DNA of 64,000 nt from Synechococcus sp. PCC 7335 (GTDB taxonomy: Bacteria; Cyanobacteriota; Cyanobacteriia; Phormidesmidales; Phormidesmidaceae), in assembly GCF_000155595.1 (NCBI RefSeq), contig NZ_DS989904.1, positions 380,477 to 444,476 of the forward strand, read 5' to 3'. Under the pieces are notes generated by a model. It was not told the DNA's origin. It did not search any database and saw nothing but the letters and a program-made list of their open reading frames with translations. This document shows, one piece after another, positions 55,386 through 64,000 of this stretch (position 1 is the stretch's first letter; each line of letters begins with the position of its first letter). A program made the translations under genes and the position numbers.

Positions 55386-56330
55386 ATGGGTAATCGAATC
55401 TTGCTAGGTCTAAGAAAGCAAGAGTATGGGCTATCTTACATAGGAAGCCTCTCAAGAGGTATGGCACTAGGTGCAGTAGCTGTGATGATGACCGCCACGT
55501 TTGGCTGTAGTGATAGCCCAACTCAAGTCGACAGCCTTGCTGATGATCAACCTGCTGACAATCAAGTAGATGAAAGCCCTAGCGCTGCGGCCACAGACGC
55601 CTCTGGGACGTTAGAGATACGGGCTAATGGAGAAGACTTTGTCCGTCAGGGATTTGTTTCTAAAGATGGCTGGGAAATTGAGTTTGATCATGTCTATGTG
55701 ACGCTAGCCGATATCACTGCTAGCCAAAGCGATCCCCCTTTTGAACCGGGGAAAGGAGAACTCGTTGCTCAGCAGCAGGCTAAGCTGAGTGAACCCGTTA
55801 CAGTGGATCTAGCTGCTGGCGATGAGAGTGCAGAACCAGTACTAGTTGGTGAGATTACTTCGGCTCCAGCAGGTCGCTATAACGCACTGTCATGGGCACT
55901 GACCCCAGCAACAGAAGGTCCTTCGGCTGGCTATCCGCTGATGCTAGTCGGTAGCGCCACCAAAGCTGATACTGCAGACGCCACACCGATTGATTTTCAA
56001 ATGCGTCTGAGTGAGACCTATGGTTTTACCTGCGGTGATTTTGTGGGCGATACTCGCAAAGGAATTTTAACTGCCGATAAACCCGCCGATTTAGAGGCAA
56101 CTTTTCACTTTGACCATATATTTGGTGATGCGGACGCGCCAGCTACTGATGAAATCAACACAGGTGCGTTAGGCTTTGAACCTATTGCTCAGCTCGCTGA
56201 GGAGGGCGTGGTAGATGTGGATAGTGAGCAGCTAGAACAGTCACTGTCAGCATCAGATTATCAAACGTTACAGAGTGTGTTGCCCAGCTTGGGTCACGTC
56301 GGGGAGGGTCATTGCGAACTGATCGAGTAA
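55386..56330 (+). CDS. Exported lipoprotein-like protein of the metal-transport locus
   Basis: About 314 residues from ATG 55386, chosen because GGGAAG is correctly spaced; ATG 55356 has none. The N-terminal hydrophobic stretch (MALGAVAVMMTATFGC) ends in a possible but non-ideal lipobox Cys. An acidic linker follows, then a beta-rich domain: GWEIEFDHVYVTLADITAS, APAGRYNALSWAL and ATFHFDHIFGD. It recalls DUF4382-type lipoproteins. Several His and acidic residues (FHFDHIFGDADAP) suit metal binding. It overlaps the next gene by 19 bp, so it belongs to the transport operon. The function is not established. Confidence 0.65.
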   Translation: MGNRILLGLRKQEYGLSYIGSLSRGMALGAVAVMMTATFGCSDSPTQVDSLADDQPADNQVDESPSAAATDASGTLEIRANGEDFVRQGFVSKDGWEIEFDHVYVTLADITASQSDPPFEPGKGELVAQQQAKLSEPVTVDLAAGDESAEPVLVGEITSAPAGRYNALSWALTPATEGPSAGYPLMLVGSATKADTADATPIDFQMRLSETYGFTCGDFVGDTRKGILTADKPADLEATFHFDHIFGDADAPATDEINTGALGFEPIAQLAEEGVVDVDSEQLEQSLSASDYQTLQSVLPSLGHVGEGHCELIE

Positions 56331-56917
56331 AATTTTTAGTCTCCGTGCTGCTTTTGACTGTCGGCTCGGTGCTCTCAAGAGGTCCTAGCGCCCAGGCTCA
56401 CGGCGCCGTCGTTGAAGTAAATCCCGCTTCGGTCGAAATCAAGGCTGTTTTCGATACTGGAGAACCGATGAGCGACGCCCAAGTTCTAGTCTATTCGCCT
56501 ACGGATTTGTCAACGCCTGTGGCTAGCGGACAGACTGACAGTGAGGGACGCTTTCTATTCTCACCTGAACCTGATCAAGCAGTAGCAGAGTCACAGAGTG
56601 GCCGTTGGGAGGTCACAGTCAGAAAGGCTGGACACGGTCAAGTGACTACCTTTGAGCTAGGAAAGGGCGTTTTGCAACCGGTGGGTACTGATCCATCTAC
56701 CGGGCGTTCACCGCAGTTTGCGACTCAGCAGTGGATTAGCATTGCTGCAATTATTTGGGGATTTGTTGGCACAGCACTTTTTTTCAAAGCTCGCGCCGAT
56801 CAGTCTAGGCGTCTTCGTCTAGGGGCAAACTCGGCGGAGAGCACAGCGGAGGCTTCGGCTTCCCACGTTCAATCTCCTAGCGTTCAGGCTCCTAACGTTC
56901 AAAGGAGCGATCGCTAG
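56312..56917 (+). CDS. Small periplasmic subunit-like protein of a Ni/Co ECF transporter (NikL-like)
   Basis: A 201-residue protein from TTG 56312. The signal peptide is FLVSVLLLTVGSVLSRG, with probable cleavage at AQA-HG leaving an N-terminal His. A carboxypeptidase-regulatory-like or transthyretin-like beta domain follows (EIKAVFDTGEPMSDAQVLVY, ASGQTDSEGRFLFSP). A C-terminal membrane helix (ISIAAIIWGFVGTALFF) anchors it. This is the build of NikL-type auxiliary subunits. It overlaps the upstream gene by 19 bp and cbiM by one base (TAGTG). Confidence 0.7.
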   Translation: MRTDRVKFLVSVLLLTVGSVLSRGPSAQAHGAVVEVNPASVEIKAVFDTGEPMSDAQVLVYSPTDLSTPVASGQTDSEGRFLFSPEPDQAVAESQSGRWEVTVRKAGHGQVTTFELGKGVLQPVGTDPSTGRSPQFATQQWISIAAIIWGFVGTALFFKARADQSRRLRLGANSAESTAEASASHVQSPSVQAPNVQRSDR

Positions 56918-57582
56918 TGCATATCCCAGATGGCATCGTTCCAGCACAAGTTTGTATTGCAGGCTATGGGGTGACGGGCCTTTTTACCTGGTATTCACTG
57001 CGTCAAATCAATAAACGGAGCGATCCTAGTGTCAAGATTCCTAAAGCCTCTTTACTCACAGCGGCCTTCTTTGTTGCCTCTTCTATCTATATTCCGATCC
57101 CACCTAGCAGTGTTCATCTGGTGTTGAATGGTCTTCTAGGCGTTGTGCTAGGCTATTTTGCGTTTCCAGCGATTTTAATTGGGCTATTTTTTCAGGCCCT
57201 AATGGTTGGCCACGGTGGACTAACGACTCTAGGCATAAATGCCAGCATGATGGGGCTTCCGGCATTGCTGGCCTACTATATCTTTCAGCTAAGAACGGTT
57301 GGAAATCGAAAAAAAGAGACCGCAAATGAACGGGGCACCAAACTAAGAGTGGGCTTTTTCGCTTTCTTAGGCGGCGCAGTTGGCCTGTTTCTCGCTGCGC
57401 TGATTTTTACGGGGATCGTAATTACGACGGTGCCGGCTGAGTTCGACTTCGAGACGGAGAGAGCAGCGATCACAGCACTGCTACTTTTGCATGTTCCCCT
57501 TGCCCTGTTAGAAGGAACTTTTACAGCAATGCTGGCTACCTTTTTGTATCGAGTGAAGCCAGAACTATTAGCGGGGAGATAG
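56917..57582 (+). CDS. cbiM: CbiM/NikM substrate-binding subunit of a Ni/Co ECF transporter
   Basis: A 221-residue membrane S-component. It begins exactly MHIPDGIVPAQ from GTG 56917; the Met1-His2 N-terminus coordinates Ni or Co in this family, which fixes the start. Six to seven helices follow, including PPSSVHLVLNGLLGVVLGYF and FFQALMVGHGGLTTLGINAS, with the second conserved metal-site His in VHLVLNG. Ni versus Co specificity is not decidable by reading; the InrS-like repressor and lack of a B12 riboswitch favour nickel. It is followed by cbiQ at 57590. Confidence 0.9.
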   Translation: MHIPDGIVPAQVCIAGYGVTGLFTWYSLRQINKRSDPSVKIPKASLLTAAFFVASSIYIPIPPSSVHLVLNGLLGVVLGYFAFPAILIGLFFQALMVGHGGLTTLGINASMMGLPALLAYYIFQLRTVGNRKKETANERGTKLRVGFFAFLGGAVGLFLAALIFTGIVITTVPAEFDFETERAAITALLLLHVPLALLEGTFTAMLATFLYRVKPELLAGR

Positions 57583-57589
57583 CAAATCT

Positions 57590-58381
57590 ATGGCTATGGC
57601 CAACTTTGAAACTTATGTCAGCGGGCGATCGCGTCTGCATAGCTGGACGCCAAGGCTAAAGCTAGTCAGCTTGGGCTTGCTGATGTTTGCCTTTGCCGCT
57701 ATCAGAGGGCTTCCTCTGGTGTTGCCGATGCTGTGTTTTACGGCGATTTTGTATTTCCTTTCCGAGCTCCCTTTTTCTTTCTTGCTCAAACGATTGCGCT
57801 ATCCAGGACTGTTCATCCTTATGGTGGTCCTGGTTTTACCTTTCTCCTCTGGAGAGACGATCCTCTGGCAGTGGGGCGCTCTGGCTTTACGTCAAGAAGG
57901 CGTCGAAGCTATGGTACTAATCGTGGGTCGCTTTCTTTCTATTTTGACGCTAGGGTTTGTTTTGCTAGGGACTACGCCTTTCGTGACTTTGCTGCGGGCA
58001 CTGCGATCGCTAGGCTTACCCAATTTGATTGCAGATATGACCCTATTGACCTATCGCTACCTGTTTGAAACCGCAGAAATGCTCAGTACCATGCAGCGCT
58101 CAATGCGACTAAGAGGATTCGGACAGCAGCGTCGTCGGTTTAGATTACAGCGTCAGGATTTGCAGAGACTTGCAGGACTGTTAGGCACTTTGCTAATCCG
58201 CAGCTATGAGCGCTCTGAGCGCGTGTATAAAGCAATGCAGCTACGTGGCTACGGACAGCTAAAGCAACCTGTACTAAAGGCATCAGTCGATAGTAGCAGT
58301 GTACTGTTAACCGGGCTTTGTATCATTGCAGCGCTAAGCTTTGTGGTCGCAGACTTTTCTTTATCAGCTCCAAACCTATAA
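57590..58381 (+). CDS. cbiQ: CbiQ/EcfT transmembrane coupling subunit
   Basis: A 263-residue membrane protein. Its two coupling motifs contacting the ATPase are MRLRGFG (about residue 173) and MQLRGYG (about 215), the duplicated Ala-Arg-Gly-type signatures of EcfT. Hydrophobic helices precede them (LGLLMFAFAAIRGLPLVLPM and LGFVLLGTTPFVTLL). It starts at ATG 57590, with GGGGAGA as ribosome site. It is in one operon with cbiM, with a 7-bp gap. Confidence 0.9.
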   Translation: MAMANFETYVSGRSRLHSWTPRLKLVSLGLLMFAFAAIRGLPLVLPMLCFTAILYFLSELPFSFLLKRLRYPGLFILMVVLVLPFSSGETILWQWGALALRQEGVEAMVLIVGRFLSILTLGFVLLGTTPFVTLLRALRSLGLPNLIADMTLLTYRYLFETAEMLSTMQRSMRLRGFGQQRRRFRLQRQDLQRLAGLLGTLLIRSYERSERVYKAMQLRGYGQLKQPVLKASVDSSSVLLTGLCIIAALSFVVADFSLSAPNL

Positions 58382-58599
58382 TCTTTTTTACTTATAAATT
58401 CTTTTCAATTCATGCACTCCTATAAGATGAATCTCTTCTAAGCAATCCTTTTGTCAGTGCTAGAGTAGATAAGCTCTTTTGAGTACCGGCTATTAGCCAT
58501 AGTTAGCGTTAGGTTAGCGCTAGTTAAAACACTGTTTAAAACGACCCTTAAAACTCGTCTCATAAAGTATGGTCAAAGTAGACGTCAGGATAGTCCTCA

Positions 58600-59571
58600 A
58601 TGAGTCCAGTTTTCACGCAGCAGTCTGTAGGTGATGAAGCGCATTTAGTAGACCAGCAAGAACATTCATATTCAGAGAGTCACGCTAAAAAGAGCGGTGC
58701 AATCACGACTCAAAATCTTACCTTTCACTATCCTAACTGCGAGCCTGTTCTCGACAATGTTTCCCTATTTGTTCACAAGGGACAGCGGATTGGCATTATC
58801 GGTCACAACGGCTGTGGCAAAACGACTTTATTCATGCTGCTCTGTGGTGTGTTATCACCCACTGCAGGAGAAATTTTTCTTCTAGATCAACCGGTCAAGC
58901 CAGGAGAGTTTCGCCCAGAAGTAGCCATGCTATTTCAAGATCCAGACGATCAGCTGTTCTCTCCAACGGTGAGGGAAGATATTGCCTTTGGACCGCAAAA
59001 TATGGGCCTAGACCCAGAAGCTACTACCGCGAGAGTGAACAAAGCCCTCGCTATCACTGGAACAGATTTTTTAGCCGACCGTACGCCTCACCACCTATCA
59101 GGCGGAGAAAAGCAGATGGTGGCGATCGCCGGTCTATTGGCAATGCATCCTGAAGTCGTTTTGCTAGACGAGCCTACTGCAAGCCTAGATATGCGCACCC
59201 GTAGGCGGCTCATTAGTTTCTTGCAAAGATCGGCTGAGACGATGCTGATCTCTTCTCACGATCTGGAGTTTGTCCTAGAAGTATGCGATCGCGTCATTCT
59301 AGTCGACAACGGTCAAATTATTGCCGATGGTGATCCGCTAGACATTATGGGTGATCAGGCACTGATGGAGGAACATGGCTTAGAAAAGCCTCACTCGCTA
59401 ATTCCTCATGTCCGTCCGCATCATCGTCGCCTATCGGTCGCCAGCCGAAGTCCTGAAAGTCACGTCAACACCATCGATCACGCCATCGATTTTGAAAAGT
59501 TAGGGACCACAAAGTCAGAGACCACAAAGACTGAGGCCAAGCGCGGCCAGATCAAAAACGAGCAGAGATAG
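58600..59571 (+). CDS. cbiO: CbiO ATPase subunit of the Ni/Co ECF transporter
   Basis: A 323-residue ABC ATPase. Walker A is GHNGCGKTTL (about 64-73), the Q-loop MLFQDPDDQLF is typical of CbiO/EcfA, the signature is LSGGEKQMVAIAGLL, and Walker B is VVLLDEPTASLD, followed by the switch His in SSHDLEFVL. N-terminal (about 35) and C-terminal (about 60) extensions go beyond the core; the C-terminal one has HVRPHHRR and may touch metal or be disordered. A 218-bp gap separates it from cbiQ, so a separate promoter is possible. Confidence 0.9.
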   Translation: MSPVFTQQSVGDEAHLVDQQEHSYSESHAKKSGAITTQNLTFHYPNCEPVLDNVSLFVHKGQRIGIIGHNGCGKTTLFMLLCGVLSPTAGEIFLLDQPVKPGEFRPEVAMLFQDPDDQLFSPTVREDIAFGPQNMGLDPEATTARVNKALAITGTDFLADRTPHHLSGGEKQMVAIAGLLAMHPEVVLLDEPTASLDMRTRRRLISFLQRSAETMLISSHDLEFVLEVCDRVILVDNGQIIADGDPLDIMGDQALMEEHGLEKPHSLIPHVRPHHRRLSVASRSPESHVNTIDHAIDFEKLGTTKSETTKTEAKRGQIKNEQR

Positions 59572-59682
59572 CAATTTAGAAATGATGTTGAGTTAACCGG
59601 GCACGTTGGCATGTTTCATGCCAGTGCCGTGGTTCGTTTTGGGCCTACTAGAAATTCTGTATCAGAGAGCTGTACTACTGTA

Positions 59683-61341
59683 CTAAACGTTTGCCAGGTG
59701 CCTATGTACAAACTGAACGCAGATTGAGCCTTCTCCTACCCCTGAGGCCACCCGCTTCACCGAATTATGGCGCACGTCACCGACAGCAAAGATCCCAGGC
59801 ACGTCTGTCTCTAAAAGAAAGCGATCGCGCTCTAGTGGCCATCCCCTATCCTCACTTACGTCTGGGCCTGTATAGATAAATCCTCTTTGATCACGCTGGA
59901 TGGTATCACCTAGCCATTCTGTACTTGGCGTCGCGCCAATAAAGATAAACAAGTAGCTCGTAGGAAATGTCTTTGTCTCCCCTATTTGAGAGTCTTCTAC
60001 AACGATACGGTTTAATCGCTCGTCACCCTGCGCTTCTACAACGCTATGAAACGGCATTACCCTGATATTCTCGGTGTTATCGATTTGATCGATGAGGTAC
60101 TGCGACATGCTCTTGACGAGCGATTCACCGCGGACCAGCATATTCACCTGACGAGCATATTGAGAAAAATACATCGCCGCCTGACCTGCAGAATTAGCGC
60201 CGCCGACGACGTATATTTCTTCTCCTTTGCAAGCAGGCGCTTCTGTCTTAGCCGCTCCGTAGTAGATGCCTCGCCCGGTAAATGCTTCGATCCCAGGCAC
60301 TCGTAGCCGTCGCCAGGATACACCTAGAGCCAACACCAAAGCATGACAGCTAATTTCACCACCGTCTGCTAGCGTAACAATGCGATAGTCATCTTCGATC
60401 CGTAGATCTGTGGCTGACTGTGGGGTCAAAATCTCTACCCCAAATCGTTTAGCCTGAGTCACCGCTCGCCGAGCTAAGTCATCGCCGCTAAGCCCGACCG
60501 GAAACCCCAGGTAGTTTTCGATCCGAGAGCTGGTCCCTGCTTGCCCGCCAGGTGCCTCTCGCTCTATCATCACTGTTTTCAACCCTTCCGACGCACCATA
60601 GACAGCGGCTGCAAGTCCAGCGGGGCCACCGCCAACAATCACTAAATCGTAGAATGGTTTAGCCGCCTCGGTCTGCAGGCCTACTTGCTGAGCTAGCTCT
60701 GTGACACTAGGTTGAATAAGTTTGTCCCCTTGAGCGGTAATCACCAAAGGCAAAGAGGCACTATCTGAGTTTGCGTCAGAATAGTTGATTAGCTTTTGAG
60801 CTTCTTTGTCAGTTTCAACATCTAACCAACGATAGGGAATCTGGTTTCGTGACAGGAAATCACGCAGATCGTGCGATAAAGGAGACCAGCGATCGCTAAC
60901 GACTTTCACCCCTTTAAATTCTGGTTTAAAGTGAGCTTTCCAATCTTGAATAAGATCATCTAGAACGGGATAGAGCTTTTCTTCAGGGGGGTCCCAAGGC
61001 TTGAGCAGGTAGTAGTCAAGTCTAGCGTCATTGATAGCTGAAATTGCGGCGTTAGTATCAGCATAAGCAGTGAGCAAGGCCCGCTTTGCCATTGGGAAAA
61101 CTTCGCTGCCCTGTTCTAAGAATTCGACGCCGCTCATACCTGGCATCCGCTGGTCGGCCAAAAAGAGCGCCACAGTATCACCGCGCAATTTCAGTTTTTC
61201 AGTCGTTTCTAGCGCAGCTGCGCCCGAATCAGCCCGAACGATGCGAAAGCGATCGCCATACTGCTTTCTAAGATCGCGTGAAATCGATTGGAGTACAGCC
61301 GGATCGTCATCAACGGTTAGAATAACTGGCTTATCCGCCAT
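59683..61341 (-). CDS. Response regulator fused to glutaredoxin-like and thioredoxin-reductase-like domains
   Basis: A 552-residue three-part protein. Residues 1-130 are a receiver domain with phospho-acceptor Asp63 (LADQRMPG) and Lys114. Residues about 143-210 look like a glutaredoxin/thioredoxin fold without a CxxC (SDRWSPLSHDLRDFLSRNQI). Residues about 230-552 are a TrxR-like flavoprotein with FAD motif VIVGGGPAGLAAAVYGASEG (235-254) and NAD(P)H motif VVGGANSAGQAA. The TrxR CxxC is missing; that position reads YYGAAKTEAPAC. It is therefore not a thioredoxin reductase. A UBP zinc-finger gene lies upstream on the same strand. Confidence 0.88.
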   Translation of the reverse strand: MADKPVILTVDDDPAVLQSISRDLRKQYGDRFRIVRADSGAAALETTEKLKLRGDTVALFLADQRMPGMSGVEFLEQGSEVFPMAKRALLTAYADTNAAISAINDARLDYYLLKPWDPPEEKLYPVLDDLIQDWKAHFKPEFKGVKVVSDRWSPLSHDLRDFLSRNQIPYRWLDVETDKEAQKLINYSDANSDSASLPLVITAQGDKLIQPSVTELAQQVGLQTEAAKPFYDLVIVGGGPAGLAAAVYGASEGLKTVMIEREAPGGQAGTSSRIENYLGFPVGLSGDDLARRAVTQAKRFGVEILTPQSATDLRIEDDYRIVTLADGGEISCHALVLALGVSWRRLRVPGIEAFTGRGIYYGAAKTEAPACKGEEIYVVGGANSAGQAAMYFSQYARQVNMLVRGESLVKSMSQYLIDQIDNTENIRVMPFHSVVEAQGDERLNRIVVEDSQIGETKTFPTSYLFIFIGATPSTEWLGDTIQRDQRGFIYTGPDVSEDRGWPLERDRFLLETDVPGIFAVGDVRHNSVKRVASGVGEGSICVQFVHRHLANV

Positions 61342-61494
61342 GAAAGTTTCCTGGTTGTCTTAACATGCTTTTTGACTTAATTCTTATAGCGCAACTAGAG
61401 CCAAAGCGACTAGAGCCCTTCTGTACGCGCTGAATGCGTAGCCGCTGCTCACGACTAGTCACTCACTTTCTACAAGAACTAGCGAGCTAGCTCG

Positions 61495-61761
61495 TCAGGC
61501 TTCGACGTAGGTGTTATCGATATAGCACCACAGCCAATCCTCACCTGGTTCAAAAGACTGAACGATGGGGTGATTTGTTTGGCCAAAGTGCTTGCTGGCA
61601 TGTTTGTTCTTAGAAGAATCGCAGCAGCCTACATGACCACAACTTCGACATAGCCGCAGGTGAATCCAAGTGTCACCCATCTTAAGGCATTCTTCACAGC
61701 CTTTAGCACTAGGCTCAACTGTTTCGATTTGATCGGTATGAGTACAAGCGGTCTGGGGCAT
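61495..61761 (-). CDS. UBP-type zinc finger protein
   Basis: An 88-residue protein consisting only of a ZnF-UBP domain: ACTHTDQIETVEP, GCEECLKMGDTWIHLRLC, SCGHVGCCDSSKNKHASKH and HPIVQSFEPGEDWLWCY. The Cys and His zinc ligands are all present. In eukaryotes the fold binds the ubiquitin C-terminus; bacterial stand-alone copies have no known ligand. It lies 153 bp upstream of the response-regulator/flavoprotein gene on the same strand, and the two may act together (inference). Confidence 0.9.
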   Translation of the reverse strand: MPQTACTHTDQIETVEPSAKGCEECLKMGDTWIHLRLCRSCGHVGCCDSSKNKHASKHFGQTNHPIVQSFEPGEDWLWCYIDNTYVEA

Positions 61762-61973
61762 GATCTTAATTTTCTAAGAGATTAAGCCAACATGGAGTGA
61801 GGCAGGATGCTAGGTATGGCTAGATATTATCAACCTAGCGTAGTTAACAATACCTCTCGAGTGGGAGATTTAGTTTCGCGCGCTGTAGAGTAGCTCTGCT
61901 GTAGTCAAGCTATTTGTAGTCAAGCTATTTAATAAGAGCACTTTTGGTAACAGTACCTTTAAGGATAATACCT

Positions 61974-62987
61974 TCAACGGCAGCGTTGACAGAGCAATAG
62001 GCCAAACCACTGCCGCGGATCGCTAAAGGTTTCTATAACGTTAAGCTGATGGCTAGCGAGAATACGTGTCATCTCTTCAAGATCGAATTTGCGAGAGATT
62101 TCGCTGAGAATGCGATCGCCATTTTCAAAAGCAACAGTTAGTTCTAATGTCTCTAGTCTCACTGTCTGCGCCGCCATACTCTCTAAATACATCTCAATCT
62201 GATTTGCTTGTTTGTTGTAGTGGGCAATGTGCAAGAACTTGCTTAGATCAAAGTTTCCTTCAAATTTTTGATTAAGATGTCGCAGCATGTTTAGATTAAA
62301 GGCTGCAGTGATACCTTGACTATCGTTATAGGCAGACTCTAGAACAGAGATCTCCTTTTGCAGATCTACTCCTAGTAGAAAGTAATCGCTAACTTCTAAA
62401 GTTTCGCTGATGCGGGATAAAAACCTATCGCACTCTTCTGGTAAAAGGTTACCGATGGTACTACCAATAAACGCAATCATCCGAGCGGGGAACTGTTTCT
62501 TCGGCAAAGCTTTAAGCGCAGATTCGTAGGTGCTAGAGATAGCGTAAATTGATAGCCCAGAATATTCTTGTAACAACTTATCAGCCGTTTCACGCAGCAT
62601 CGTATCGCTAACATCAACAGGTAAATAGCGTAGCGGGTAGCTAGCTTTCTGATAGGCATCTAGCAAGATGCGAGTTTTCGTAGAGCTGCCGCTGCCAAGT
62701 TCAACAATCTCACAGGGGCCAGTAGCCTGAGCGATCGCGCTCCCATACGTCTGTAAAATAGCGGTTTCCGTCCGCGTCGGATAGTATTCTGGCAGCTCGC
62801 AAATCTGTTCAAATAGCTGTGAACCTCTCTCATCATAGAAGTACTTGGGCGGTAGATATCTTGGATGCGCGCAGAGCCCAGCGACTACATCTTGGCCTAA
62901 TTTTCCTGTGTCCTTAGAATCCAAAAGGTTGACTATCTTTACCCTCTGCCCATCTTTCTGTTCATCTTTTGACATTACCTTCTTCAA
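61974..62987 (-). CDS. egtD: L-histidine N-alpha-methyltransferase (EgtD)
   Basis: A 337-residue SAM enzyme that trimethylates histidine to hercynine, the first step of ergothioneine synthesis. EgtD landmarks are PPKYFYDERGSQLFEQICEL, PEYYPTRTETAIL, EIVELGSGSSTKTRILLDAY (SAM motif I), YLPVDVSDTML and FIGSTIGNLLPEEC. The residue order and length match the family. It lies 81 bp downstream of egtB, so the two form an operon. ATG 62987 starts MKKVMSKDEQ; Met5 could also serve. Confidence 0.93.
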   Translation of the reverse strand: MKKVMSKDEQKDGQRVKIVNLLDSKDTGKLGQDVVAGLCAHPRYLPPKYFYDERGSQLFEQICELPEYYPTRTETAILQTYGSAIAQATGPCEIVELGSGSSTKTRILLDAYQKASYPLRYLPVDVSDTMLRETADKLLQEYSGLSIYAISSTYESALKALPKKQFPARMIAFIGSTIGNLLPEECDRFLSRISETLEVSDYFLLGVDLQKEISVLESAYNDSQGITAAFNLNMLRHLNQKFEGNFDLSKFLHIAHYNKQANQIEMYLESMAAQTVRLETLELTVAFENGDRILSEISRKFDLEEMTRILASHQLNVIETFSDPRQWFGLLLCQRCR

Positions 62988-63068: not shown

Positions 63069-64000
63069 CTATGAGCTCACGCAGCGAAAACCTGAAAATA
63101 TTTCCCGCCGGTGGGGATGATACCAGTTACGAAAGCTAGGCCGCTTCACCCATCTTGGCGTAGCCCAGCTTCCCCCTTTCAATACCCGATGCTCTCTATC
63201 AAAGTAAATTTGTGAATAGCCCTTGTAAGGAAAAGGCTGAAATCCTACATAACCTGAGAACCAGGTGTCTGTCCATTCCCAAACGCTGCCTGACTCAAAG
63301 TTGCCTGTATAAGCTGTTCCCCTATAGTCTGTAGGATTTAGGTCTGTAGTCAGGCCGGTAGTTGAGCCAGTAGTCGGGTCAGTAGTCGCGCCAGTAGTCG
63401 TGTGGATGCGTTCAGGCTTAAGGGTGATTGCCTTCTCCCATTCAGATTCTGTCGGTAGCCGTTTGCCTCTGTACCTTGCATAAGCATCGGCTTCATACCA
63501 ACTTACGCCGCAAACTGGATAATTATCCCAGTTTCTTTGATCCGACAGTGCTTTATATGATGAAGGGCTATCGAGTAGAGTGTCATCTGGCCAATAGAGC
63601 GGTCTATCTACCCGTGCGGACTTTAGCCACCTCCAGCCGGCTTCATTCCACCACTTTGCCTGGTGATATCCACCATCTTCTACAAACTCTCGGTACTGTT
63701 TACAGATCACAGGGGCACAATCAATCCAATAATCCCCTGTCGAAACTAAATGTGCCGGACGCTCATTATCAATAGCCTCTGGCGCATCAGAGCCCACAGT
63801 TGCACTACCCGCTGGGACATAAACCATGCGGTTACTTTCAGTAGAAGAAACTGGTCGAACTGTCGGATAAATAAACGCTCCGAAGTTTTGCTGATGCATC
63901 GCTAGCACCATCACGATCGTTTCTGCATGCTGACTTTCGTGTTGAATTAGCCAGTGCCAAAGACGACTATCTTCGAGATTGCTGTTGTTTAGATAGTCGA
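63069..64000 (-). CDS. egtB: Ergothioneine synthase EgtB, 5' end beyond the window
   Basis: An iron-dependent sulfoxide synthase joining hercynine to a thiol substrate. The frame remains open to base 64000, so the N-terminus is missing. The end of the DinB-like domain is seen as HESQHAETI (HESQH at 63927-63941), which carries two iron-ligand His. The formylglycine-generating-enzyme-like domain follows: VYVPAGSATVGSDAPEAIDN, YEADAYARYRGKRLPTESEW, GSVWEWTDTWF, VLKGGSWAT and FRNWYHPHRREIFSGFRC. A Thr-rich insertion coded by 12-bp repeats lies at 63344-63403. egtD follows. Confidence 0.93.
   Translation of the reverse strand, partial: DYLNNSNLEDSRLWHWLIQHESQHAETIVMVLAMHQQNFGAFIYPTVRPVSSTESNRMVYVPAGSATVGSDAPEAIDNERPAHLVSTGDYWIDCAPVICKQYREFVEDGGYHQAKWWNEAGWRWLKSARVDRPLYWPDDTLLDSPSSYKALSDQRNWDNYPVCGVSWYEADAYARYRGKRLPTESEWEKAITLKPERIHTTTGATTDPTTGSTTGLTTDLNPTDYRGTAYTGNFESGSVWEWTDTWFSGYVGFQPFPYKGYSQIYFDREHRVLKGGSWATPRWVKRPSFRNWYHPHRREIFSGFRCVSS
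63344..63403. repeat. 12-bp tandem repeats inside egtB
   Basis: Five consecutive 12-bp units of the form CAGTAGTCGNGY (63344-63355, 63356-63367, 63368-63379, 63380-63391 and 63392-63403) encode a TT(G/D)x four-residue repeat on the minus strand. They are in frame, so the gene is not broken. Confidence 0.85.

Follow-up and report, generated by a model that had tools for sequence, protein, structure and literature searches.

We analysed a stretch of 64,000 nucleotides from the cyanobacterium Synechococcus sp. PCC 7335 (assembly GCF_000155595.1, contig NZ_DS989904.1, positions 380,477 to 444,476 of the forward strand), which we call the window and in which positions are counted from the first letter. 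Its minus strand encodes a fusion protein of 552 amino acids (59683..61341, -, ATG start) that consists of a receiver domain (REC), a glutaredoxin-fold domain and a flavoprotein module resembling thioredoxin reductase (TrxR). Upstream on the same strand lies the gene for a stand-alone ZnF-UBP protein of 88 amino acids (61495..61761, -, ATG start), separated from the fusion gene by a spacer of 153 bp (61342..61494, -). According to the open reading frames (ORFs) and profile searches, the order of genes on the minus strand is an EgtB-like gene, egtD, the ZnF-UBP gene and the fusion gene. The original prediction, made from the DNA sequence, had described the three-part fusion and the ZnF-UBP gene 153 bp upstream of it, and both are borne out by the ORF coordinates and Pfam, the fusion also by an AlphaFold2 (AF2) model with a mean pLDDT of 88 and a profile match of its glutaredoxin-fold segment. 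The fusion has lost the redox cysteines of both of its parent folds and recurs together with a histidine kinase and with ZnF-UBP proteins; the kinase, absent from the original prediction, was found as the third partner.

The receiver is intact and the glutaredoxin fold has lost its cysteines

Homologues carrying the receiver (REC-type) were collected as the best 80 of 591 candidates, and this set of 80 loci is therefore biased to close relatives. The window protein and the proteins of 63 of these loci form the alignment (A3) of 64 REC-type sequences used below. The closest named relatives are cyanobacterial and include a Leptolyngbyaceae metagenome-assembled genome with 80% identity across residues 3-379. 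The genome to which the window belongs (95% complete) contains a single zf-UBP match and a single match to the fusion over its full length.

The receiver domain comprises residues 7-119 (60985..61323, -; PF00072 Response_reg, 2.2e-13). D11, D63 (codon 61155-61153) and K114 are present in 64/64 sequences and D12 and T91 in 63/64; the acidic pocket, the phospho-acceptor Asp and the Thr and Lys switch residues of response regulators are thus retained. With D63 and K114 invariant and T91 missing only once, the receiver is expected from its sequence to accept phosphate and should be phosphorylatable, and the intact Asp63 that had been pointed out originally is a general property of the aligned proteins.

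The domain following the receiver (residues 145-219; 60685..60909, -) shows the order beta-alpha-beta-alpha-beta-beta-alpha in the AF2 model. A profile of 16 such segments has the Mycobacterium tuberculosis glutaredoxin Rv3198.1 (2lqo) as its nearest PDB match (E 4.7e-9), and the segment of the window protein alone scores 16.7 bits with Pfam Glutaredoxin, below the cut-off of 22.9. The CGYC motif of Rv3198.1 aligns with S153-P-L-S156 of the fusion, S153 being kept in 62/64 sequences. A glutaredoxin-fold segment without CxxC, as had been proposed, is therefore present.

A TrxR-like flavoprotein without redox cysteines

The TrxR-like FAD/NAD(P)H module covers residues 231-548 (59698..60651, -), with Pyr_redox_2 matching residues 231-538 (E 4.8e-36). 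Pfam, PDB matches and the AF2 model agree on the low-Mr TrxR fold with its FAD and NAD(P)H domains. At the position of the TrxR motif CxxCD the fusion reads G-A-A-K-T-E (residues 362-367; 60241..60258, -): the CxxCD of the other TrxR-like protein of the same genome aligns with G362 and T366-E367. Position 362 is Gly in 63/64 sequences, position 366 is T, S, V, Q or G and Cys in 0/64, and E367 is found in 64/64, so the acid beside the cysteine site is retained although both TrxR cysteines are lost. The redox CxxC next to the FAD that characterises TrxB is absent from the 64 REC-type sequences, which confirms that the fusion contains a TrxR-like flavoprotein without its redox motif. The other TrxR-like protein of the genome (L003, G000:C2:87905-88795) has kept its cysteines as CAICD and carries GEPPEA in place of the usual GxGxxA nucleotide motif; judging from this sequence, its electron donor may be unusual.

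Cysteines are also scarce elsewhere in the fusion, with three in the window protein and one in the whole homologue L037 from Deinococcus aetherius. CxxC occurs in 1/64 sequences (L069) and in 1/13 sequences of set A1 (L042), in both cases elsewhere in the protein. A hidden cysteine pair restoring TrxR activity, which the original prediction had considered, was searched for in the homologues, was not found and is rejected, given the homologue with one cysteine and the lack of a recurring CxxC. Since the cysteine pairs of the glutaredoxin and of the TrxR part have both been replaced and a homologue exists with just one Cys, the usual dithiol relay is lost; inside L037 such a relay is excluded, and this speaks strongly against one in the family.

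Strictly conserved are flavin- and nucleotide-site residues as well as Y361, E367 and Y415. C371 is kept in 53/64 sequences and replaced by Tyr in 10/64. R404 is invariant and position 405 is Arg in just 4/64; the counterpart of position 405 presumably helps to bind the 2'-phosphate of NADPH in E. coli TrxR.

The fusion fails the curated profiles of its nearest families, with 218 bits against a cut-off of 343 for TrxB (TIGR01292) and 169 bits against 503 for AhpF (TIGR03140). By PDB sequence matches it is closer to a genuine TrxR (7jyp, 1.7e-45) than to a TrxR-like ferredoxin/flavodoxin reductase (FNR; 5xhu, 1.1e-15). The AF2 model reaches TMt 0.92 with a TrxR in the flavin-reducing conformation (5mh4) and 0.62 with one in the flavin-oxidising conformation (5mjk); as the model is a single predicted conformation, its better fit to the former is only suggestive.

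A histidine kinase accompanies the REC-type fusion

The partner kinase consists of an N-terminal cNMP-binding-like (CNB) domain and HATPase_c, as assigned with Pfam. Searches used a model (A2) of 13 rows, ten from eight of the 80 loci and three from plasmids, and matches of at least 90 bits were counted. A kinase lies within 3 kb of 69/80 REC-type loci and on the same strand in 66; in plasmids of Nostoc, Deinococcus and Streptomyces its gene comes after that of the fusion.

The search for the fusion in 291 cyanobacterial genomes yielded 16 genomes, 12 of them with a full-length REC-type protein, three with partial matches (G062, G153, G161) and one (G032) with a CNB-type protein. Whole-model kinase matches (best at least 575 bits, five candidates scored per genome) occur exactly in the 12 REC-fusion genomes; G153 has a kinase fragment, and 11 further genomes match partly with at most 305 bits. 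Fusion and kinase are adjacent in 10/12, the exceptions being G095, where they are on different contigs, and the window genome; the kinase of the window genome is intact (475 amino acids, CNB and HATPase_c; G000:C1:4710217-4711644). In G062 and G161 the fusion is matched only in part and the kinase nowhere over its full length, and perhaps the enzyme decays there after loss of the kinase.

The core of glutaredoxin-fold and TrxR-like domains, called the enzyme below irrespective of what precedes it, also occurs with other N-termini. Pfam finds a CNB domain in place of REC in Rhodococcus L039 and in both copies of G032, and the Paraburkholderia, Burkholderia and Cupriavidus enzymes have no input domain, judged by their annotated length of about 400-420 amino acids. 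Among 14 plasmid enzyme loci, the kinase stands beside all four REC-type enzymes (three of these kinases are part of the model) and beside none of the ten others, two of which (L189, L191) lie close to response regulators and to a different protein annotated as ATP-binding. The input is therefore either fused in cis or, so it appears, delivered by the CNB-kinase via REC. The plasmid annotations (FAD-dependent oxidoreductase, thioredoxin-disulfide reductase, ATP-binding protein, UBP-type zinc finger) are uninformative or misleading.

The ZnF-UBP protein

The window protein matches zf-UBP with 2.4e-15 (56.9 bits, cut-off 22.7) and PDB entry 2ida with E 2.3e-35. C22, C25, C38, C41, C46, H54, H58 and H64 are found in 62/62 bacterial UBP domains, and W32, R36, W76 and W78 are kept in 60 to 62 of them. 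The predicted fold resembles 2ida (Z 10.4) and HDAC6 (3phd_D, Z 8.7) in a model of moderate quality built from ten sequences (mean pLDDT 71.6).

The bacterial domains thus share the fold, the Cys/His positions and the tryptophans with HDAC6, USP5, USP16 and RPA1320 (2ida). They differ from the eukaryotic ones at position 49, which aligns with an Arg of zebrafish HDAC6 and is S in 48, D in 8, Q in 2 and E, N, A or T in one domain each, Arg being absent in 62/62; the HLR motif and W76 are conserved in the bacterial proteins. We take R1155 of HDAC6 and R221 of USP5 to be the residues that hold the ubiquitin C-terminal carboxylate. Without this anchoring Arg a role as C-terminus reader is doubtful, and the original prediction of an eukaryote-style reading of free C-termini is not supported, though the tryptophans and the fold are kept. 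From the sequences, the role of the missing Arg might be taken over by R36 in the HLR motif.

ZnF-UBP domains were also seen at the C-terminus of antiporters of the Na+/H+-exchanger family (L063:7628-9802, -, with TrkA_N; L165:1477-3018, -), and the gene of the L063 protein is divergent to a REC-fusion. Fusions of UBP with the enzyme were rejected, no ORF matching both models in 195 loci. The long UBP frames of L180, L167, L169 and L027 have no second Pfam domain and are taken as frame artefacts, and the suspected broken UBP gene of the cyanobacterium G179 has one flagged TAA but an intact ORF.

Linkage of the ZnF-UBP gene with the enzyme

The clearest case is that of the Pseudomonadota, in which the enzyme was found in 23/199 genomes and zf-UBP in 6/199, all six in enzyme genomes (Fisher p 1.3e-6); in all six the matches are 83-191 bp apart and co-directional. 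In Actinobacteria 44/197 genomes have the enzyme, 46/197 UBP and 34 both (p 2.7e-19), meaning that UBP is present in 34/44 enzyme genomes vs 12/153 others. Both genes lie within 5 kb in 12 actinobacterial genomes, with 12 of the 13 pairs co-directional. Among the 291 cyanobacteria, UBP occurs in nine genomes, the enzyme in 16 and both in five (p 2.9e-5); kinase, fusion and UBP stand together in G179, and two further named cyanobacterial loci (L055, L066) have the enzyme and UBP adjacent. The control genomes gave zf-UBP matches in 2/14.

Of the REC-type loci 15/80 have UBP within 3 kb. UBP was found in 38/49 genomes of REC-type loci, and in 24/34 when the 15 UBP-linked ones are left out, for a hand-chosen 50 of the 80 loci (49 searched, all 15 UBP-linked included); these counts are slightly low, PF02148 having missed the UBP of L112. 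Of 16 plasmid neighbourhoods, nine were chosen by an enzyme match and seven by a UBP match, and the respective other gene stood beside it in 5/9 and 5/7.

Linkage is thus seen in cyanobacteria, Actinobacteria, Bacteroidota, Acidobacteria (as the antiporter-fused form) and Pseudomonadota, in different gene orders, and the gene ends overlap in Streptomyces, Tsukamurella and Rhodococcus loci. This physical linkage in several orders is stronger evidence than the p values. The conserved neighbourhood that the original prediction looked for among cyanobacteria is therefore found across phyla, with adjacency among the 291 cyanobacteria in only two genomes.

Gene surroundings

In the window, egtD (histidine N-alpha-methyltransferase; 61974..62987, -; TIGR03438 397 bits, cut-off 291) lies upstream of the UBP gene on the same strand and belongs to the context, possibly a functional one. 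The EgtB-like gene before it (63069..63998, -) is truncated by the window end and, being incomplete, scores 274.5 bits with TIGR03440, under the cut-off of 360. On the other side, a gene run on the plus strand (56312-59571) converges on the fusion and ends with an energy-coupling-factor/cobalt-type ABC ATPase, under curated cut-offs; the frames before it resemble what we take to be CbiM- and CbiQ-type parts. A scan of 59400-62100 found promoter- and terminator-like sites no better than in shuffled sequence.

An egtB-egtD pair is near the fusion in 4/80 loci. In two Dyadobacter loci (L079, L086) the order on one strand is egtB-egtD-kinase-fusion-UBP, in Pararcticibacter (L117) it is egtB-egtD-kinase-fusion with no UBP, and in D. 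sediminis (L099) the pair is nearby on the other strand. Across 138 Bacteroidota genomes EgtD is present in 17/19 enzyme genomes vs 21/119 others; since EgtD and the enzyme are physically linked only in the centre genome G311, lifestyle may explain the co-occurrence.

Further thiol and stress genes accompany individual loci. In Tsukamurella a mycothiol dehydrogenase comes after fusion, kinase and UBP, and in the Rhodococcus plasmid pDK2 (L039:1-7254) dnaK-grpE-DnaJ-cbpM-clpB-trxA-UBP-CNB-fusion stand on one strand, the UBP gene overlapping the enzyme gene. Two Paraburkholderia plasmids (L040, L186) carry enzyme and UBP beside a Clp-type/AAA ATPase and HdeD, L040 also Hsp20 and PsiE. No such stress or thiol genes are seen in L036, L037, L042, L185 and L188. 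The surroundings hint at oxidative or proteotoxic stress or at small-thiol metabolism, without favouring one over the other.

LtrA (low temperature requirement A) genes were observed near the REC-fusion or kinase, by annotation in L036 and L037 and by clustering with a Pfam LtrA representative in L051, L064, L066 and L121. A frame of 1092 amino acids, present in 12 loci, was discarded as antisense because in L103, its representative, it spans the fusion and the kinase on the opposite strand.

Discussion

We propose that the fusion is an NAD(P)H flavoenzyme that works without thiols, is gated by a signal, and has both a kinase of its own and a ZnF-UBP protein as partner, and we put the probability of this reading at roughly 50%. 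It would be the enzymatic output of a signalling module that does not act on transcription. The CNB histidine kinase would sense a signal and phosphorylate Asp63, as co-occurrence and the intact residues suggest, and phosphorylation may then shift the receiver and the glutaredoxin-fold domain on the TrxR-like flavoprotein and thereby control how electrons pass from NAD(P)H to FAD. A CNB domain in place of REC, a swap that is seen directly, would mean control by a ligand without a phosphorelay. Because both thiol sites are lost, we propose that the flavin reduces an acceptor directly, by hydride or electron transfer, in the manner of the TrxR-like FNRs that lack CxxC. Linkage and co-occurrence make ZnF-UBP a probable partner, most likely one that brings the acceptor to the enzyme, or else a substrate that is damaged or bears a thiol, and the neighbouring genes suggest that the module may serve oxidative or proteotoxic stress or low-molecular-weight-thiol homeostasis. 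The architecture put forward originally, a phospho-gated flavin enzyme without the usual dithiol relay that recurs with ZnF-UBP, is supported by the domains, alignments and linkage, with ligand gating added for the CNB form.

Several observations weigh against this proposal. Enzyme and UBP are adjacent in only 2/291 cyanobacteria, the window genome and G179, which have opposite gene orders. No UBP lies within 3 kb of 65/80 REC-type loci, and none is found in 10/44 actinobacterial and 17/23 pseudomonadotal enzyme genomes; UBP is therefore not obligatory for the enzyme. Conversely, 12/46 actinobacterial and 4/9 cyanobacterial UBP genomes have no enzyme, and UBP also occurs fused to antiporters. 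The p values for co-occurrence ignore phylogeny and lifestyle and count the centre genomes, and the tallies per genome score few candidates (4 to 10 for enzyme or kinase, up to 20-29 for UBP). For the kinase, 11/80 REC-type loci have none in the available DNA (five with shortened and six with full 10-kb flanks), and that of the window genome is far from the fusion. An Arg in the phosphate-binding cassette is canonical in cNMP-binding domains. By eye no such Arg is recognised in the divergent CNB domain of the kinase (unaligned stretches, at most 70 of 95), and cAMP is therefore a doubtful candidate for the signal. Finally, of the three Arg residues that we take to be ligands of the NADPH 2'-phosphate in E. 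coli TrxR, two are replaced in most of the sequences, so that either NADH or NADPH may be preferred.

It might also be that the cysteine-less TrxR-like part is a sensor and not a reductase, which, with FAD and NAD(P)H bound, signals the redox state through its conformation to REC or CNB and to UBP, while its electrons go nowhere useful. The loss of both dithiols under strict conservation of flavin- and nucleotide-site residues and of Y361, E367 and Y415 would fit this idea, as would the fusion to signalling input domains; yet an input domain makes sense upstream of an enzyme and is redundant upstream of a sensor, and relatives with the TrxR fold and no CxxC are working reductases (PMC10294844, as far as covered here), so that we regard the sensor as a distinctly less probable explanation than the gated enzyme. 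Slightly less probable again is that kinase and REC-TrxR form the real system, on which UBP has no bearing, being carried along on stress islands that spread horizontally and having no functional contact with it. The many REC-type loci and UBP genes that do without each other speak for such a passenger, as do the antiporter-fused forms and the presence of both genes on plasmids, some of them beside heat and stress genes. Against a passenger speak the adjacent and co-directional position of all six pseudomonadotal UBP genes, the linkage in five phyla in different orders and the overlapping gene ends.

Reduced flavin without a dithiol acceptor can react with oxygen, and the fusion could accordingly be imagined as a regulated NAD(P)H oxidase whose flavin reduces O2, with the resulting H2O2 or superoxide serving as a signal. 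The stress genes around some loci would suit this, but NAD(P)H oxidases usually have a redox cysteine or haem and nothing speaks positively for the idea, which we consider improbable. Hardly credible is that the fusion is a normal thioredoxin reductase whose cysteine pair has moved elsewhere or forms between molecules: the overall fold, the annotation and C371 in 53/64 sequences could be cited for it, and it is contradicted by the homologue with a single cysteine, by the Tyr in place of C371 in 10/64, by the lack of a recurring CxxC and by the 218 bits with TIGR01292 against a cut-off of 343.

Parts of the gated flavoenzyme that we favour have known counterparts. REC combined with thioredoxin reductase is listed among enzymatic response-regulator outputs, as a 'Mycobacterium-like combination', in a census of archaeal two-component systems (PMC5847659), and this is the same fusion of REC and TrxR; the part of the census covered here mentions no glutaredoxin domain, missing cysteines, partner kinase, UBP or function. 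In AhpF, the NADH:peroxiredoxin oxidoreductase, too, a thioredoxin-superfamily domain precedes a TrxR-like module (PMC8945050, in the part covered, which has nothing on the fusion enzyme), and AhpF structure 4o5q is the first Foldseek match of the whole model by E-value, with a TM-score of only 0.37-0.39; AhpF relays electrons via cysteine pairs, which the fusion has replaced, and lacks the added signalling input domain. TrxR-like FNRs of the YumC type share the TrxR fold without CxxC and, according to the part of PMC10294844 covered, are working reductases that use NAD(P)H to reduce an acceptor outside the protein; the fusion differs in being closer in sequence to genuine TrxRs and in its additional REC or CNB and glutaredoxin-fold domains. 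The YumC type is further characterised by a C-terminal subdomain which stacks a residue on the FAD of the partner, and by the reduction of ferredoxin or flavodoxin. The two Paraburkholderia neighbourhoods with a Clp-type/AAA ATPase and HdeD recall the tLST/LHR stress-tolerance island with its dna-hsp20-clpG core, but neither gene is named in the part of PMC8290217 covered here, and most other loci have no such genes.

Among the matches listed for the open-licence PMC literature, with subscription papers mostly outside this scope, no description of the trio of kinase, fusion and UBP was found, and PMC1779556 gave no match for UBP, zinc finger or TrxR. The earlier statement that no pathway is described for the pair holds to this extent, although the REC-TrxR type itself was already on record (PMC5847659). 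The cysteine-less nature, the wiring of CNB in cis or in trans and the partnership with UBP were not found described in the open-licence PMC literature searched.

More speculatively, and with little expectation that it will hold, ZnF-UBP may in these ubiquitin-free bacteria act as the receptor of either a small thiol or a glycine tag at a C-terminus and pass this ligand to a cysteine-less flavoenzyme switched by a CNB signal; the whole would then be a control module for low-molecular-weight thiols, an idea we rate just above that of the oxidase. It draws on circumstantial evidence, namely the egtB-egtD neighbours, the mycothiol dehydrogenase of Tsukamurella and the fusions of UBP with antiporters. 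Antiporters of the KefB type respond to glutathione (PMC8290217, in the part covered).

If the proposed gated flavoenzyme is real, it would be a two-component system with a redox enzyme as its output instead of transcription, built from a thioredoxin reductase stripped of its thiol chemistry. One kind of input domain would then be wired in two ways, either fused in cis or acting through kinase and receiver. The bacterial ZnF-UBP proteins, for which a structure (2ida) was solved in 2006 and for which we found no assigned role, gain a recurrent partner, and the role of this ubiquitin-tail-reader fold in bacteria thereby becomes directly testable.

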